Source: Thunnus maccoyii
Lineage: Eukaryota > Chordata > Actinopteri > Scombriformes > Scombridae
NCBI RefSeq assembly: GCF_910596095.1
Contig: NC_056550.1
Location: forward strand, 26,775,001-26,839,000
Length of the DNA stretch: 64,000 nt
Reading direction: 5' to 3'
The notes beneath the pieces were generated by a model. The model saw only the letters and a list, made by a program, of their open reading frames with translations, was not told the origin of the DNA and made no database searches. Positions 1 to 58,345 of this stretch are shown here, one piece after another. Positions within the stretch are counted from its first letter, which is position 1. Every line of letters starts with the position of its first letter. A program made the position numbers and the translations under genes.

Positions 1-4631
<4,631 letters not shown>

Positions 4632-10775: not shown

Positions 10776-48905
<38,130 letters not shown>

Positions 48906-50539
48906 GTTGGAAATATCACCGTCGGCGGTTGAATCAACCTGAGGCTCGCGGGCGGCGGAGTCGGTCACCGGTGGTTCAGAGGCGGTCGAGCTGACGTCTG
49001 GATCGTCACTGGCGACAGGGTCGGCCTCTGGTGCGTCGATGGGAGCGGAGTTGACCTCTGACCTTTGTTTGACCTCTGGCCTGTTGACACCACACACAGC
49101 AGAAATCAAATAATGAAAACTGTGACTAGGACTAGTTTTTCAATTAAATGAAATAATAAATAAGGAAAAATGACATTTTTTCCTTGAAAATGACTTATTC
49201 CTTTAATAAAACAGTTGCCAATTAATCCTCTATCGATTGATTAATTATTGCAGCTTCACTGTGAACGACGTCACTCTTCTCACTGGTAAAACAGTCACTT
49301 ATCCAACATGTCAAAGCCTAAAAATTAACACAACTACAGCAGCCGGTTGCAGCAGTCTTGTTATTAATAAGTGCAGATTTACACTAAATCACTAAATTAA
49401 AACCACACAAACTAGTTCCTACGTAGAGATGAGTTGTTACATCTACATATCTGACCTGACGTCTGTTAGCTTAACATAATCTGATAATTCCCTCTCACTG
49501 TAAACTGCATCAATATTACTAATAATACAACACACATATTTATCCAGGTATGCAGATCAAGTCACAAAGGATTGACAGTTAAGTTTATTTTATCCTTTTT
49601 TTATCCTAAAATGGTTATTTTTGGAAGTTATGTTACAGCTCTACAGATATCTCCTGACACCCAATTTACACATTAAAGTCTTTACTAGATGTGACATTTA
49701 TTAATGATTCAACCTGATTTAGTGAATCACTAGTTTGAAACTAACTTATCAGTTACTAAGACCCTCAGAAGGACTTAAAGCACAAACTTAGTGATGGATT
49801 TACGAGCAGCTGGTGCAGCACAGATGTGATATTTCACTTGCCGTGTAGGATATACAGTCCATGTTGAGTTACTGTTAACCTCGTTAACTTCAAAGGACAC
49901 TCCGTGACGTGGTCTACCACTTTCATACATTTCAGTGACTCACAAGAGACAGAATCATTAAAACAGTGGTCAACATCGAAGCGACAGATGCTGAGATATC
50001 CTCATTTTTAATCCTCAGTATGAGTCAAGCTCCAAAAAAGAAAAACACTGGATCCTACATTTCCCACAATGCAACACACAGCATCATTTGATTGAACTTC
50101 CCTGCTTGAGGAATCTTCAAATCACATCTTTCAAACTCCACTCCTCCAGTTTGCAACACTTTGTTTGACTTTCTGTTAAACATTTTAAAGTCCCAAGCCC
50201 TACCCTGATGACATCACTATGACATCATCAGGGTTATTTACTCTTATAGCCTTTAGAGAGAGTCCTAGAGACAGTCCTCCAGAGCCACAAAAGATGTGAC
50301 ACGGCTGTTTTCACAGGCTAGACAACTGCTCGTCATGATGAGTTGACTAAGATTAATATGTAAACTCGTGTCCCTTTAAAGTCGAATAAGAAAAATATTG
50401 AGGAAATTTACTAAAAATTATGTCAAAATCTACAACAAACAAACAAACATTATCAATTTGGAAAAAATCTGGAATCAAAATGCGAAAAAAATGCAACATT
50501 TTACAGTCGATATAATTTAAACTTAAAACTTGTTTACAG

Positions 50540-50900
50540 ATAAAGCTGCAACTATTAGTCGATTAACCAATAAATTGATCAACAGTCAATTAACGTCTGA
50601 TTCATCGTTTTGAGCCATTTTAACAAAAAAAAAAAAGAAAAAAATTTAAAAATTCTCTTGATTCCAGTTTCCTAAATGTGAATATTCTCAGGTTTCTTTA
50701 GTCCTTTATGACAGTAAACTGAATATTTTTGGGTTGTGGATAAAACATTTTATGTTGCATCTTGGGTTTTAAGAAACAGTGATCGACATCTGTTACCCTT
50801 TTCTGACTTTTTATAGACCAAACAACTAATTGACTAATCAAGAAAATAATCAACAGATTAATTGATAATGAAAATAATCATTAGTTGCAGCCGTAATTAC
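50540..50900. repeat. GCTGCAACT/ATTAATC repeat copy
   Basis: It has AAGCTGCAACTATTAGTCGA, TTTCCTAAATGTGAATATTC and GACCAAACAACTAATTGACT. It ends ATCATTAGTTGCAGCC. Confidence 0.7.
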
Positions 50901-51039
50901 AAATCTTAAGTATCTTTGTAACTTTAAGTGCCTAAATAAGCAACAATCAGTGTTAAAGTTTGGGAAATAAAAACATCTGATAAAAGAGTTTAACAGTCAA
51001 AACTCTGAGTGGTTTTTATCAGATTTGATTGACGGCGAC

Positions 51040-51620
51040 TTAAAGGACAAGTTCACAGTTTTTCCAGTGTGTCTTAAACCAGCAGTCAGGTGTCCATAGT
51101 AACAGTGAAAGAGGTTTTCCTCGCTGTAATCATTCCTCCTGTTCATACTGGATATTAAAAGATCCTTCAAATGTGCTTTCAATGGAAGTGATGGAGGCCA
51201 AAATCCACAGTGTGTCCACACAGTCATTTAAAAGTCTCTTTGAAGCTTATAAGAGGCTTCAGCAGTCTGAGTTAGTCATATCAAGTGGATATCTGACACA
51301 TTTACAGTCTTTTTAGCATCAAATTCCCTCTTTGTGTTTCCTCGGACAGTGTTTCCCTGTTGAGCTGCAGGTGGAAGTATAGTAACAAAAAGAGGGACTT
51401 TGGCACTAAAAAGACTGTAACATTCATATTAGCTTCAGATAAACATTTAAATACATTTTTGCACAGAAGGAGGACTGTGGATTTTGTCCTCCATCACTTC
51501 CATTGTAAGGTCATTATGAAGGGATCTTCTAATGGTCAGTATGAACAGGAGGAATGATTACAGCAAGAAAAACAGCTTTCACTTGTTTTAAGACTGACAT
51601 GAAAAATTGTGAACCCGTCT
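51040..51620. mobile_element. Large palindromic repeat (AAGTTCACAATTTT family), copy 2
   Basis: It begins AAAGGACAAGTTCACAGTTT and ends ACATGAAAAATTGTGAACCC. Long inner blocks pair: GTAATCATTCCTCCTGTTCA with TGAACAGGAGGAATGATTAC, and ATGGAAGTGATGGAGGCCAA with TGTCCTCCATCACTTCCAT. This is the most complete copy here, about 580 bp. Confidence 0.75.
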
Positions 51621-51837
51621 CCTTCAAGCAAACATCTCCACACCTGTCATCACATTTTAACACCAAAAACAGTTCTGAATGTAAAGAACACAAAGTAAAA
51701 CACAGCATCAAGCAGAGGAGGACAAAACATCAGTTCACAATCAAAAGATTTGTTAACCTTTCCGTGCAGATAACTTCAAGCTCTTTCTCGATCCCTCATC
51801 ACACAGAAGACTCAGTCAAACAGGTGCATTCACTCAC

Positions 51838-51867
51838 GGTTTTCTTCTCCTTCTGAGGCTCAAACTG
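51838..51867 (-). other. Possible 30-nt in-frame exon between membrane exon and exon 1
   Basis: It lies between GGCAG and GTGAGTG on the minus strand and is 30 nt long, so it would keep the frame. In the required phase it would add a basic stretch (RRRRK). The polypyrimidine tract is poor. Confidence 0.2.
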
Positions 51868-51969
51868 CTGCCTTCGCATCCACACAGAACATTTACATTT
51901 TCACAGAAGTGCCTGACAGATTACTGCTGATAACGCTACATTTCCCTAAGTTTGCATTCAGCTACTTAC

Positions 51970-52121
51970 TCACTTATTCCTGTCTCTGCCTCTGCGTGCG
52001 GGTCACAAGGCAGCGCTGTCTGCTTTGACCTCCCATTGAAGAGCAGGCAATAAAACATGAAAAGCAGCACACAGATAACCCCTATAATCAAACAACTCAG
52101 CTGCCATGCTGGAATGCCCAT
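51970..52121 (-). CDS. myh11: Candidate alternative first coding exon of myh11 with a membrane anchor
   Basis: ATG at 52119-52121 (context AACATGG) starts 50 codons plus two bases, up to donor GA|GTAAGT. Residues 8-28 form one hydrophobic segment (LIIGVICVLLFMFYCLLF core), followed by NGRSK. The short uncharged N-terminus and the basic residues after the segment predict an N-out, C-in signal anchor. Splicing to 49080 gives E51 and then the exon 1 linker in the myosin frame. Total extension is 109 residues (152 + 175 = 327 nt). If unspliced, the frame stops after 51 codons and could be a micropeptide. I do not recognise the sequence from any known family. Confidence 0.5.
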
Positions 52122-52194
52122 GTTTGGCTAACCCCTTTGCTCCTGGTAGCTTGGTAGCCCAAAGAGGGATGCTAGGGACTTAGCAGTCATGATA

Positions 52195-52204
52195 CCTTAT
52201 AAGG
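52195..52204. promoter_or_regulatory. Perfect CArG box (SRF site)
   Basis: CCTTATAAGG matches CC(A/T)6GG exactly and is palindromic. It lies 74 bp upstream of the membrane-exon ATG. SRF with myocardin drives smooth-muscle genes including mammalian MYH11 through such sites. A match is expected about once per 16 kb by chance, so position is the argument. Confidence 0.6.
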
Positions 52205-52777
52205 TGCAGCTCATGTGTCCAGCCAAGCTTACCGTTTACACCAAAATGGTGACATGTCACAAGGTGCGTCCATGTGTGGCCGTCGGCGCACAGAGCAGAG
52301 CAGGTAGCAGAAATATCAATATCCAGCATCTAACTTACACTTCAGCCCTGTTTACAGGGACATTTAATGCTTCAAGTGATGTAAAGTGAGTCAACAGACC
52401 ATATATTTGATTAAAATATCAATCCTTACACACTTTAATAGAGTCTGAATGATGCAGCAGACCACTGATATTGAATTAAACTCTTTATAATATCAATTTA
52501 TTACTCTTCAGTGCCAAATAATGACACATCTCAGTGTGTTTTGGTTTTAAGAGTAACAGATATATGACTTTTAGCTCCTAACAGGCTACTTTTTAGTTTT
52601 TCTATGAAGATATTTTGCACTTTTCTACAATTTTAAGAGATTTTGTATTAATATTATGAGGATATTTCAGCAGAAGTCCCTGCATGTTACTAGTAAAAGT
52701 CTGAATTAAAGCTGCACAGTTTAAATTTGTCTGTTTGAATTAAAAATAATCAAAATAAAAACAGTCTTCATACTCAC

Positions 52778-52870
52778 TCTGCAGTGTTTCAGTCCTCAGT
52801 GCAGGATGCAGGCTGAACTCCAGGGAAATGAGAATATCATGACAGGTAGATTAAATGATGATGATGATGA
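52778..52870 (-). other. Candidate non-coding first exon of myh11
   Basis: A stretch ending ACACTGCAGA|GTGAGTATG on the minus strand has a strong donor at 52777. It starts about 25-30 bp downstream of a TTTAAATA element. It has no in-frame coding use that I can see. It could splice to the membrane exon or directly to 49080. A GAT triplet repeat lies inside it. Confidence 0.35.
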
Positions 52871-52892
52871 TGCAGTCCTTCCTCCTCCACAC

Positions 52893-52946
52893 TATTTAAA
52901 CAGGCCCGCGACACCTGGGGGTGGAGCAGTGCGTCCGACCCGCCTC
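52893..52946 (-). promoter_or_regulatory. Candidate myh11 core promoter
   Basis: On the minus strand a TATA-like TTTAAATA (52893-52900) follows GC-rich DNA with a GGAGGCGGG box near 52938-52946. This fits transcription toward the candidate first exon. Confidence 0.35.
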
Positions 52947-53079
52947 CTCTCCAAAGTCGGCAGCAGTGCAGGAGTGATGTCCATGAGGGAGAGGAGGTGT
53001 AATTACTCTGCCTTCATATTATAACCTTGTAGGAAGAGAGGTGAACTATTATGGAATGAGTGTGTGTTTGTATTTGTAT

Positions 53080-53335
53080 TAGAGCTGCAACTAACATTAT
53101 TCTAATGATCAATTTATCATTTTATTTATGAAATGTAAGTTATATTTTGTTTGTTTTGTCTGATAAACAGTCCAAAATCCAAAGATATTTATTCTGCTCT
53201 CAAAGCAACAACATCACAGAAAAGTTGCAACAAGCTATTTTTATATTTTTTCATTGAAATATGACTAAAACAATTAAAATAGTTAAATTTTCTGTTAATC
53301 GACTAATCAATTAATCGACTAATTGTTGCCGTTTT
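53080..53335. repeat. GCTGCAACT/ATTAATC repeat copy
   Basis: It starts AGAGCTGCAACTAACATTAT, has GTCCAAAATCCAAAGATATT and ends TAATCGACTAATTGTTGCC. An AGTACTT-family fragment follows to about 53450. Confidence 0.7.
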
Positions 53336-54050
53336 TCTCAAGTTAGGTACAATTTTAAGGTACTTGTATTTTTCTTGAGTATTGCCAGCTGCCTGTTTCA
53401 ACTCACTCTGCTACATTTCAGAGGAGAATATTAGTTTTGCACATTTAATGTGCTTAAATGCATATTTCACCAATTAAAGCCTTATATGACTGTCCCACGT
53501 TTCAAACCACAACTTTCCAAAATTGGACGATGAAAAATTGACTGAAACCTGATTTAACGACTGAAACTTCTAAAATAAAAATACATATATATATATATGT
53601 ACATCATATTATATCATATTTCAAATACCTGACATCACCCTCAGTGTCAATCAACATATTTGGAAATTGTGATGACGTCATCATAAGACAAACAGCAGTA
53701 CACATGAAGTACTGGTGTGTAACAGGAAACGTCATGTTGATGATTCCTTCCATGTTTTGTTGATTTTCCTCTTTAAAAAAACGTTTAAAAAGTTGAATTC
53801 ATAATAAAACACCCCTCTGACGTCAGGAGTTTTACTGCTATTTGACCTGTATGACCTCTATGTTAACTGGAGTTAATTGTAAGTTGACTAGAATAAAACA
53901 TATGAAACATGTTTTCACCATGTTTTAGCATATTTCAATTACATCACACTCCAGGTGTAATTTAATAGCAGCCCTATTAATTAGCATTTGTTAGATGAGA
54001 TATATGCATTTGAGTTTAGCTGTTTGGTCATGCTGGCTCGCCGTAGTCTA

Positions 54051-54064
54051 GTTTCCATGGTGAC
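54051..54064 (+). promoter_or_regulatory. X-box (RFX binding site) upstream of hoatz
   Basis: GTTTCCATGGTGAC fits the RFX consensus RYYNYY-N2-RRNRAC at every position. It lies 80 bp before the hoatz ATG. RFX factors drive ciliary genes from proximal X-boxes. A forkhead-like TGTTTATTT follows at about 54103. Confidence 0.65.
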
Positions 54065-54143
54065 CAAACCAAACAAAAACGTTCACCGCTCATTTCTTTC
54101 GCTGTTTATTTGTAGTTAATATCCCGTATAATTATTTCCAGTC

Positions 54144-54590
54144 ATGTCTGCCCAGCCAGAGGAGGAGTTGGATCAGTTCTTCACCGTGTTTGACGGCTCC
54201 TCTCCGGAGGACGTGTCCCACGCCCGGCAGCTGTGGAGCTCCTTGTCCCTGCTGCCGCCGCAGGAGTCCCGGCTGGTGTCGGCGGATATCCACCAGCGGC
54301 TCCCGGTGTCCCGACCGCAGCCGAGCAGCAACGGCCCCAATACCTCCGCCCCGCAGCCGCCGAGCGCCCCCGCTGCCCGGCAGAGACAAGAGGAGAGGAG
54401 GCGGTATCTGTCCATGGCCGACCAGAGGAGGGAGATCCTGGCTCTGCTGAAGAGGCAGAGGGAGCAGCGGATCCAGAAGGAGCTGCTGTCGGTGGCCTTT
54501 AAACCGAAGATGAAGATCAGCAGAGAACTGAAAACACAAAAAACATCAGACTTTGAGACGGACAGAGAGCTGGTCAGACAGCTGCACTAG
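54144..54590 (+). CDS. hoatz: Cilia- and flagella-associated protein HOATZ, intronless
   Basis: One uninterrupted 148-codon frame encodes a HOATZ (C11orf88) homologue, needed in mouse for motile cilia and sperm flagella. Similar to human HOATZ are FTVFDGSSPEDVSHARQLW, SRLVSADIHQRLPVSRPQ and the C-terminal helix QRREILALLKRQREQRIQKE then LLSVAFKPK. The middle is Pro/Ser/Ala-rich. The start has G at -3 and follows TTTCCAG, which may be an acceptor for a 5' UTR exon. The human gene has several exons as I recall, so the single coding exon is notable. The upstream X-box fits a working ciliary gene rather than a dead retrocopy. Confidence 0.9.
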   Translation: MSAQPEEELDQFFTVFDGSSPEDVSHARQLWSSLSLLPPQESRLVSADIHQRLPVSRPQPSSNGPNTSAPQPPSAPAARQRQEERRRYLSMADQRREILALLKRQREQRIQKELLSVAFKPKMKISRELKTQKTSDFETDRELVRQLH

Positions 54591-54730
54591 ACTAATAAAC
54601 CTTTCACAGGTTTATGGTACATATGTAGAACCAAATTCATGTTGAGCATGTCATGGAGACTGGTTCAGTTTATTCATAATATTATAATATATTTATAAAA
54701 TACAACACATCAGACTTTGTCAAGCAGAAC

Positions 54731-54736
54731 AATAAA
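54731..54736 (+). terminator. hoatz polyadenylation signal
   Basis: AATAAA lies 141 bp after the stop, and a GT-rich stretch (GTCTCTGTGTATGTTGTTC) follows at about 54756-54778. Another AATAAA at 54594-54599 lies only 4 bp after the stop and is less likely. Confidence 0.55.
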
Positions 54737-55010
54737 GTCCATCAGTTATTTCCATCAGTGTCTCTGTGTATGTTGTTCAGGTCTTGCAGAACAGGTGAGG
54801 ATGCTGAACAGGTCTGTAGTATTTAATACAATTAAAACTTCCTAATAGCAGCAGTCTAATCAGGAAATGCACATTCTAGTTATATTATTATATATGACAT
54901 CATTAGATTATCAATAGTGAAGCATCAGTGTTAGAGCAGCATGTTACTGTTGTAGCTGCTGGAGGTGGAGCTAGTTTACACTACTTTATATACAGTTAGC
55001 TAGTTTAGTC

Positions 55011-55344
55011 CAGTGGTTCCCAACCTAGGGGTCGGGGCCCCTCCAAAGGGTCAGCAGATAAATCTGAGGGGTCGTGAGATGATTAATGGGAGAGGAAAGA
55101 AGAAAAAACAAAGTTCTGATACACAAATCTGTTTTCAGTTTTTGGACTTTTTCTCTAATCTTTGATTTTTGCTGAAATATTGGATCATTTGAACATTTAT
55201 TGAAATGAAAGCATGTGAGAAGTTTAGAGGGAAAAATCACTATTTGGTGGAGCTGTTAACAACTCATAGACATGTGAAATGTGACCCCGACTACACACTG
55301 CTTTTTGTAAGACGTCAAAAGCCAAAAAAGGTTGGAAACCACTG
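55011..55344. mobile_element. hAT-like MITE with 8-bp target duplication
   Basis: The ends CAGTGGTTCCCAACCTAGGG and AAAGGTTGGAAACCACTG are inverted repeats. Flanks GTTTAGTC (55003-55010) and GTTTCATC (55345-55352) match at 6 of 8 bases, as expected for an old hAT target duplication. It has no transposase. Confidence 0.85.
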
Positions 55345-55409
55345 GTTTCATCTTTAACAATGTGTTGTATTTTAAAAGCTTGTTATATTATCCATTGTGT
55401 CAAATCTTC

Positions 55410-55500
55410 ATCTGAAAAGTAACTAAAGCTGTCAAATAAATGTAGTGGAGTAGAAAGTACAATATTTCCCTCTGAAATGTAGTGGAGTGGAAGTATAAAG
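55410..55500. repeat. AGTACTT-family MITE fragment
   Basis: It shares GTAGTGGAGTAGAAAGTACA and ATATTTCCCTCTGAAATGTA with 33035-33080. The ends are lost. Confidence 0.6.
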
Positions 55501-57639
55501 CATTTAAATTACACACAGTCAGCTCATACATTGTTATTAAAATATCTATTATAGCCACTTTAACAACTGCAGTGCCTTCACAAGCATAAAAAACACAGTT
55601 ATTCATTATTTATGTAAGATTAAATGATCTAAATGTTATGTCACTCTTACTGTTGGCGGCTATAAGACCTTGATGTGATGTACATACAGTACTGTAGTTC
55701 CTGAACAGAGCCGGTTTACAGCAGTTTGCTTCAAGCAGCATTACATAACGTGAAGTGAAGCCTCTGTGGATATTCAAATTCCAAATGTCCAAAGGCCCAA
55801 CCATAATAGGATAAGAAGAGGCCCGCTGGCTGTTGACTAGCTTAATTGGTTAAAGTGTTCAAAGCAGAAGGAGCACACGGAGGCCTGTCATCTATTAATG
55901 CTCTTTAACCTCTCAAACCCTGATGATCCTCATAATTCACCCTTAAGTAGCTTTAAAGTGATCCTCCACCCAAAATCTATCTTGAAACACTCTCCATCTG
56001 AAGGTTTGGGGGTGGAACAGCAGGTGGTCACCTTTATTTCAGCTACAATGATTGATGTCAAGTTTACTGTACATGGAAGAAGAAGAAGAGTATTCAGCCA
56101 TATTCAAGAAAAGTTCATCATCTGTGTGAGAAAGAAGCTGTTGTCAGCTATAAAAGCTGTTTTCATGGTGGAGAAAAAGTATTAAAACATCACCTGAAAC
56201 TTATGGAATCACTCCTGTAGCATTAAACACTTTTCATCTGTATGTTCAGGATTTTGCTAACATCTTTGCTAACACCTGTTATGACATTTTAAATTGTTTT
56301 TATTTTATCAAATGATAAGTTTGTTATTATCTAATGTTAACAAATAACAAACCCTGACCTACTAACAAGGATTTTTTGCCTGATATATCTTATTCCTCTG
56401 TGCTGCTTACAAGCTACTGCCAGTTGCTAGCGGCTATTAGCTAAATGCTAACAACAGCATGCTAACACGCTGATGTTGTAACTTACCGTACACCCGCCAT
56501 GCTGTCCAGGAGACATGAGGGGGAGGCACTGAACCACTTCCTGATTTTAAGATCTTGCCAGTGATGTCATGGGTCATACCAAGTGTAGGGGGATTTATTT
56601 TTTTTAGTTAAATGTTTGGTTTTGTATTTATGTTTTTTGTACTTATTTTGGTTTATGGTAAGGACTATATGGTCTGGTTGATGTGTGTGTAAACAATGTT
56701 AACTGATACAAGTGACACTGTCATACACCAGTTGTTGGTATCAGGGAAAGGACACCCCTGATAGAAATATGGTTCTTCCTTGATAGATCGGAGGGTCTAT
56801 TTAACGGGAGAGTTGATGGTTTGAGAGAGAGCAGAAATGAAAGAGGACGTCAGTGTTGATGTGTGAAGGTAAGTTTGATTTTGCTTGTTTTGACTTGGTC
56901 GTCTTTGTCTCTTATCACCTTCCTTGACACTCTGGCAAAGCTTCCTTCAAAGGTCAAACTCTATTTCACAGTAAAACAGCAAATAATTGTACAAAGCCAG
57001 AAAGGGTTGCAGAAATGTTTCATTTTTCTTGTTTCCTATTTCATCAATTGTCTTTTTGACCCAAAATCCTTTCGGATTTAATTCAATTTAATTTATTATT
57101 TTTTTAATTGTATTACATGCAAATAATGAGATTTGCTTTTTGCCTGTGATCTATTCATATGAGACAGTGAACCACCAAATGAGGGAGATGAGAGGTGAGA
57201 GACAGACTGATCAGTAGATGCTGAGTAAAAGGGAACAGGCAGTTTTACATTATGGAGCTGTAATATCTCTTAACTTTTGGGGTTGTACTAAACAGTCCTT
57301 TCATCCCCATGTCTAAACTGTGTGAGTGTCATTATGGTTGTGTATGTAATACTGTAGGTCAACCCTGAGAAGTGCGTGCTTCTCAAAAATATACGGCCCA
57401 AATGTTCTTCAAAGGTTTATTTATGATACAGGGCAGGGGTGTAGATGGGCAAAACAAGCACAGGAACATAGGAGGGAACACAGTAAAAAACACAAAAAAC
57501 AAAACTCTTCACCACAGAATAAACATGAATACAACTCAAATACTCAAGCAAGACTACAATCTCTCATCTGCAACAAACAAAACCAAAAACCCCAAAACAC
57601 AAAGTACAAAAACACAGAGTCCATGACAGGAAGTCTGTG

Positions 57640-58345
57640 GGAGGAATGTTTGCAAGTTGGTATCTCAAAAACTAAAAGTGCTAAAGTATTTATATGACAT
57701 GGACAGGTATCCCATGTGGAAATACTTGACATATTTAAACATGGGGCCAGTAGCGCCACCGTGTGGTCAGTTATTACATGTTTTACATAACTCATGAACT
57801 GTGAGGTGTATCAAAACTATATTTGCACAGTGTGTTTCTTGGACATTGCTGATTCAACTGATATAGACAACGTCCATTTGCACTTGGAAATATTCTCCGC
57901 CATTTAGGATTTTTTGCTTCTGTTGGCACGTTTAATCTAAACTTCACCAAACTTGGTAAATACTATATTTAGATGAACCCGCGCAAAACTTATGAGTTCA
58001 TTTCTGGGTGTCACTTACTGTTTGTCTGTAATTGGTTGCCAAACTTTTGAAGGTGTGGATGACGCCCTTAACGGGCCTGAACTCTTCAGCGTTAAATTGG
58101 ATTTCAACCAAATTTGGGAATGTCGTACATAACGCCCCAGTGCACACAGTGAAGTAACATTATAACATATTTCTGCTATTCTGTTGTCTGTAATAAAACA
58201 TACTGAATCATGGCACCAATAGCTCCACCCTGTGGTCATGAGTAAAACACCACCATACTACTGATTAACTGCCATATCTCTTAAATGTGATATATCAGGG
58301 TAACCAAATTCTGCAAAGTTGTACAGGTGGGGATGCTGAACAAGT
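57640..58345. repeat. Dispersed repeat with recurring 'cgccaccgtgtggtca' theme
   Basis: The motif GCGCCACCGTGTGGTCA (57751) recurs as AGCTCCACCCTGTGGTCA (58221). AACTTCACCAAACTTGGTAA and AATTGGATTTCAACCAAATT are also related. This suggests diverged internal duplications about 470 bp apart. Confidence 0.45.

Follow-up and report, generated by a model that had tools for sequence, protein, structure and literature searches.

The locus analyzed here raises the question of whether a smooth-muscle myosin of fish can be tied to a membrane by its own N-terminus. The minus strand of the window (the whole 64-kb stretch analyzed, C18:26775001-26839000 of a 782-Mb genome) carries a complete class II smooth-muscle myosin gene, myh11b, with two alternative first exons. 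One of these, exon 1b, encodes a hydrophobic helix; the other, exon 1a, does not. The best explanation, to which we attribute a probability of about 0.76 from sequence comparison, is that the gene specifies a soluble isoform (1a) and a membrane-anchored isoform (1b).

The exon chain was obtained by spliced alignment to a template; the first exon was corrected and the chain was extended to the stop codon. When exon 1b is included, the spliced model has 42 exons and 6324 nt, codes for 2107 residues and is devoid of internal stops. The myosin body (10776..48905, minus strand) accounts for 41 exons, counting exon 2, and the last base of the stop codon is at 10776. Pfam assigns Myosin_N, Myosin_head and a full Myosin_tail_1 domain, each above the cut-off. 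Behind the canonical Met, the body shows 90.7% identity to a protein from Siniperca chuatsi that is named myosin-11-like. In a midpoint-rooted tree of 26 rows (two of them human), the window myosin is found within a 16-row set of the myh11b type from acanthomorphs (higher teleosts), with a support of 100/99 and apart from the myh11a rows; its nearest row is Siniperca (94%). The C-terminal part of NDE1 (NUDE_C domain match, positions 2-121, plus strand) is convergent with the myosin gene, and NDE1 adjoins human MYH11 in the same way. Domain set, tree grouping and this convergent neighbor all assign the gene to the MYH11 class. It represents myh11b, which is the second gene for a smooth-muscle myosin heavy chain in teleosts.

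An optional 21-nt exon (38184..38204, minus strand) contributes QAGSLAY to loop 1, and the residues GSLAY also occur in P0001 and P0002. This exon is presumably the counterpart of the SM-B insert. A HOATZ-like coding match (PF17664) is located at 54159-54584 on the plus strand, thus opposite to myh11b and ca. 2 kb upstream of it. Elsewhere in the genome, C17:923143-928944 holds an intronless full-length ORF for a myosin heavy chain of 1933 residues. It is apparently a retrocopy which has kept its whole frame, and we assume, judging by eye, that it is of the striated type.

Exon 1b (51970..52121, minus strand) has a length of 152 nt and begins with MGIPAWQLSCLIIGVICVLLFMFYCLLFNGRSK. It was read base by base, and its helix has counterparts in the predicted proteins of 11 other species. 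It codes for an N-terminal tail of 7-9 residues, a hydrophobic helix (about residues 8-29), the sequence NGRSK and the start of an acidic linker. From its donor TGA/GTAAGT (the slash marks the splice junction), it joins exon 2 (49080-48744) in the myosin frame at the acceptor CAACAG/G at 49080. The 5' part of exon 2 (175 nt, 48906..49080, minus strand) codes for a linker that is acidic and rich in Pro, Ser, Thr and Ala; it is open in the myosin frame, which has the best codon score of the three phases. The remainder of exon 2 (48744..48905, minus strand) starts with the canonical Met, which is invariant in a 19-row alignment. Together, the 152 and 175 nt make 109 codons before that Met. The coordinates of exon 1b and of its junction, the splice sites and the codon counts had been given in a preliminary description of the locus, and they are borne out base by base. 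Our recount likewise agrees with the A at -3 and G at +4 reported there for both the upstream and the canonical ATG, and with the 15 acidic and 3 basic residues in the linker (residues 51-109). An in-frame TAG is found 9 nt 5' of the exon 1b ATG, and translation in this frame can thus begin no earlier in the exon.

The helix has a Kyte-Doolittle mean of 3.0 and a score of -5.2 on an insertion scale, both over 19 residues. As is characteristic of a signal anchor, there is one hydrophobic segment of ca. 20 residues near the N-terminus. A search of the PDB with the 52-residue exon returned zero matches. Within the 64-kb window, 20 ATG starts are followed by a hydrophobic 19-mer (5 on the minus and 15 on the plus strand), and in exon 1b alone does a strong phase-2 donor come after the hydrophobic segment. 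We reject a chance open frame on the grounds of this singularity and of the occurrence of the helix in 11 other species. An origin from a mobile element is unlikely, since the genome search reported only two places that match the region 51965-52330; this search skips very common words, and the second match sits among repeats that are also present in the window.

The preliminary description of the first exon was correct as to exon 1b but had missed two items, a rival donor (GTGAGT) and a second first exon at 52273-52233. The rival donor, AA/GTGAGT, overlaps TGA/GTAAGT and precedes it by 4 nt. Its use would break the frame behind the helix, and the product would end after 87 residues. If exon 1b is left unspliced, the reading frame ends after 51 residues.

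The second first exon, exon 1a (52233..52273, minus strand), consists of MDAPCDMSPFWCK plus 2 nt, with the donor CG/GTAAGC, and does not encode a hydrophobic helix. It was recognized by 13/13 identity to the N-terminus of Dicentrarchus labrax P0006 (MDAPCDMSPFWCKRPEVK). In the window, MDAPCDMSPFWCK is matched once (52273-52233), and GTAAGC follows immediately. Champsocephalus P0012 has the N-terminus MSPFWCKRRPEVK (MSPFWCKR). Exon 1a ends in phase 2, as does exon 1b, and thus leads into the same linker in the same frame; when joined to exon 2, it provides a 72-residue extension without a helix. Its end lies 111 nt ahead of the ATG in exon 1b.

Between the two first exons, a pattern search located a perfect CArG (SRF) box, CCTTATAAGG, which contains TATAA (52195..52204, minus strand). 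This box precedes the ATG of exon 1b by 73 nt and would be intronic in a 1a transcript. Perfect CArG boxes number 11 in the window, compared with 4.4 expected from shuffled sequences, and none of 100 shuffles reaches 11. Five of the boxes are found at 52195-58117, within 6 kb upstream of myh11b. For this five-box cluster (52.2-58.1 kb), P is ca. 7e-5 on the shuffled density but 0.004 on the density of the window itself, and the start point was chosen post hoc. We infer two transcript starts, of which the downstream one would be SRF-responsive. Because exon 1a is free of a helix and a CArG box is located between the exons, the gene probably switches between a soluble and a membrane-anchored form. 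For the same reasons, a regulated isoform is more likely than membrane anchoring as a fixed property. As a separate observation, the model Gadus morhua P0123 splices the end of the helix exon (MFNVLRRQKNQHL) straight to a point past the canonical Met, a sign that the N-terminus may have additional splice forms.

Homologs were searched with the full model while scoring residues 1-170. Of 174 proteins at E <= 0.001, the best 120 were taken, and Coryphaenoides and four Gadus records came from a second search, for which a gadid N-terminus was the query. A third search with a goby N-terminus retrieved only the two gobies already known. All searches return proteins of 0.55-1.75 times the query length, so that stand-alone helix peptides are out of range. 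Among the resulting 125 homologs, 91 have fewer than 20 residues before the canonical Met (absence of the exon and missing annotation being indistinguishable in gene predictions), 21 have at least 20, and 13 lack a recognizable canonical Met. A helix-like segment followed by Arg/Lys occurs before the canonical Met in 11 of the 21 extended homologs (11/125), representing 11 species. These are Siniperca, Spinachia, Collichthys, Antennarius, Scophthalmus, Doryrhamphus, the gobies Knipowitschia and Mugilogobius, and the gadiforms Boreogadus, Arctogadus and Coryphaenoides. As to the other extended models, those from Perca, Xyrichtys and Ataeniobius have their first residue within the helix or after it, that from Scortum is cut and begins in the linker, those from Dicentrarchus and Champsocephalus start with exon 1a, and a different sequence precedes the canonical Met in those from Caranx, Synchiropus, Vanacampus and Hypomesus.

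Of the 21 extended models, 11 thus retain the helix and 10 are without a full helix. These predictions do not demonstrate that close relatives have lost it, and such a loss may have happened in some lineages. The central proposal of the preliminary description, a class II smooth-muscle myosin that may be membrane-anchored, is supported by conservation, which that description did not draw on, as the helix occurs in the predicted proteins of 11 other species; the proposal is probably right. These homologs are gene predictions, which may share one prediction habit.

The helix is recognizable at very different degrees of similarity. In Siniperca, the first 33 of 33 residues are identical to those of the window. 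The goby models have kept the helix with a largely changed sequence and have a much shorter linker. The linker has ca. 80 residues in the window and ca. 60-80 in most relatives seen, and the motifs SEVNPTPI, PPEADPV and SSTASE recur there in this order. All 12 complete helices (the window included) are followed by at least one Lys/Arg within 15 residues and preceded by no more than one, and Lys/Arg are more frequent behind than before the helix, as in signal anchors. In four of the 12 (Siniperca, Collichthys, Antennarius and Scophthalmus), the 15 residues after the helix include more acidic ones than Lys/Arg, so that the topology call rests on the nearest residues. Helix scores range from -2.4 to -5.2 in six percomorph rows, including the window, and are -3.8 and -4.4 in the two gobies. 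The helix of Doryrhamphus is weak (score 0.86) and has an Arg-rich flank.

For a drift test, the window exon was mutated, with stops excluded, to the identity seen in each species, and the retained hydrophobicity was scored (1500 runs each). The hydrophobicity observed was reached in 1 of 1500 runs (0.0007) for each of the two gobies, and P was 0.015 for Arctogadus, 0.032 for Coryphaenoides and 0.043 for Antennarius. Significance was not reached with Spinachia (0.39), Collichthys (0.33), Scophthalmus (0.67) or Doryrhamphus (0.30). Siniperca, being identical, and Boreogadus, which shares its helix with Arctogadus, were left out of the runs, and the P values are not independent, the rows being related.

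For the linker (174 of the 175 nt), the myosin frame has the best codon score of the three phases. Among 20,000 base shuffles, 1 is open and reaches this score. With random windows outside the myosin exons, which may include other genes, the figure is 21 of 16,012 and, at a GC content >0.5, 18 of 743. These statistics are suggestive, not decisive. Exon 1b has a low codon score (-0.42), yet this is the best of the three phases, to which the comparison was confined.

The only other match to the first-exon region that the genome search reported is a partial copy at C18:23964441-23964617, which is 87% identical and 2.86 Mb away. It begins at the last base of exon 1a and ends inside the helix. Its ATG has been lost in a deletion of ca. 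7 nt, an in-frame TGA has been gained, and the CArG box is broken. Thus, at 13% divergence, this copy has lost the ATG, the open frame and the CArG box, whereas the copy at myh11b has kept all three. Being a single copy of undated age, it illustrates decay rather than measuring it. A second intact copy of the first exon was not found in the genome search, which skips very common words.

It has to be considered if exon 1b might be a promoter-proximal exon that is conserved as DNA and is untranslated, being joined to the myosin by annotation through a fortuitous open frame. This would fit the low codon score of exon 1b and the 91 of 125 records without a 20-residue extension, and predictions can show an extension only where the frame is open. 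However, gobies and gadiforms have kept the helix at an identity of about one third, which is rare under drift even with stops excluded. In addition, exons 1a and 1b end in one phase, and the copy at 23.96 Mb on C18 lost both ATG and frame at 13% divergence. We consider a non-coding exon improbable. It is quite improbable that the helix is translated on its own, as a small membrane protein or an upstream reading frame, while the myosin starts at the internal ATG. The overlapping donors would permit this, as the products from GTGAGT (87 residues) and from intron retention (51 residues) both keep the helix; also, the context of the internal ATG is strong and its Met is invariant in the 19 aligned rows. 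Yet the models from eleven species fuse the helix in frame to the myosin (in a search with short peptides outside its range), the linker has its highest codon score when read in the myosin frame, and its motifs recur.

Two other readings concern the fate of the helix in a protein that does contain it. Signal-anchored proteins of the TOM20 type have an N-terminal helix with positive charges just behind it. The layout of exon 1b and the nearest charges on the C-terminal flank resemble this, as does the weak helix of Doryrhamphus with its Arg-rich flank, so that a real myosin anchor might be directed to the mitochondrial outer membrane. This differs from our best explanation in the membrane site and otherwise overlaps with it. 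A high hydrophobicity of a signal anchor favors the ER route over mitochondria, and such values are found in six percomorph rows and two gobies; a mitochondrial site is thus unlikely. The hydrophobic N-terminus could also be taken for a cleaved signal peptide, a reading which we reject on the charges around the helix and to which we give hardly any credence: a positive N-region is absent, the helix is long, and Arg/Lys follow it. Moreover, the motor would end up in the lumen, which is not known to contain actin.

We thus return to a myh11b gene with soluble and membrane-anchored isoforms. In the mechanism that we propose, the two alternative first exons share one acidic linker exon. Transcripts with exon 1b, for which the upstream CArG box (at 73 nt) is the probable driver, would be spliced to it in frame. 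In their translation product, the first ca. 29 residues would form an uncleaved signal-anchor helix. The short uncharged N-terminal tail and the Arg/Lys right behind the helix favor an N-out, C-in topology, so that motor, neck and coiled-coil tail would remain in the cytosol, tied to the membrane by the flexible acidic linker. The membrane would most likely be the endoplasmic reticulum or the plasma membrane. Transcripts with exon 1a would encode an otherwise identical myosin that is devoid of the helix. The role of the anchor might be to hold a portion of the smooth-muscle myosin at a membrane on which actomyosin pulls directly, e.g. at dense plaques or the sarcoplasmic reticulum. The more general statement is that in acanthomorph fish SRF-responsive alternative first exons switch a two-headed class II myosin between a soluble and an N-terminally transmembrane-tethered form, the filaments of which pull on the membrane without an adaptor. 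Judged by sequence, it could equally well hold or fail.

In smooth muscle, separate linker proteins are normally held responsible for the coupling of filaments to membranes. If the anchor is real, this gene is a natural experiment in the direct coupling of myosin filaments to membranes. The two teleost MYH11 copies would then differ in a definite feature that is accessible to experiments in fish. The sequences of the extended homologs are already public, with record names that are silent on an anchor; names such as "myosin-11-like" and "myosin-14-like" would hide the change from a cytosolic to an integral membrane protein. With respect to earlier work on the gene, MYH11b from Sebastes is abundant in intestine, and that report gives it as 1950 residues without using the word "transmembrane" (PMC8228858). 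Medaka myh11b was undetected by RT-PCR at 2 days (PMC13035062).

Compared with known systems, the gene agrees with vertebrate MYH11 (7mf3, 6xe9, 1br1) in its head, SH3-like N-domain, coiled-coil tail, optional loop-1 exon and NDE1 neighbor. Canonical MYH11 starts at the internal Met; the sequence of the window is compatible with several N-termini, and isoform 1b would depart from this start. The anchor is not covered by any of the best 60 of 164 solved sequences, in which matches begin at residue 112 or later (at least 112) of Siniperca P0001. Teleost myh11a (Pygocentrus P0114-P0117) is a paralogous smooth-muscle myosin, and its four records, all from this one species, start with MAKNTMSDDEKFLF, without the extension. 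In class I myosins, the motor is held at the membrane, with lipid being bound peripherally through the tail and without a membrane-spanning helix. The window myosin would share the motor at the membrane with these, but has a predicted spanning helix. A literature search of open-licence papers found no description of a class II myosin that spans a membrane. The term transmembrane myosin has been applied to the fungal class XVII chitin-synthase myosin (PMC3942036). According to the same source, in this class and in the class XVI chitin-synthase myosins of mollusks and annelids, the motor itself is a membrane protein, as is proposed here; these carry their added domains, including an enzyme, in the tail and do not belong to class II, whereas the predicted anchor of the window myosin is N-terminal and attached to a class II motor (PMC3942036).
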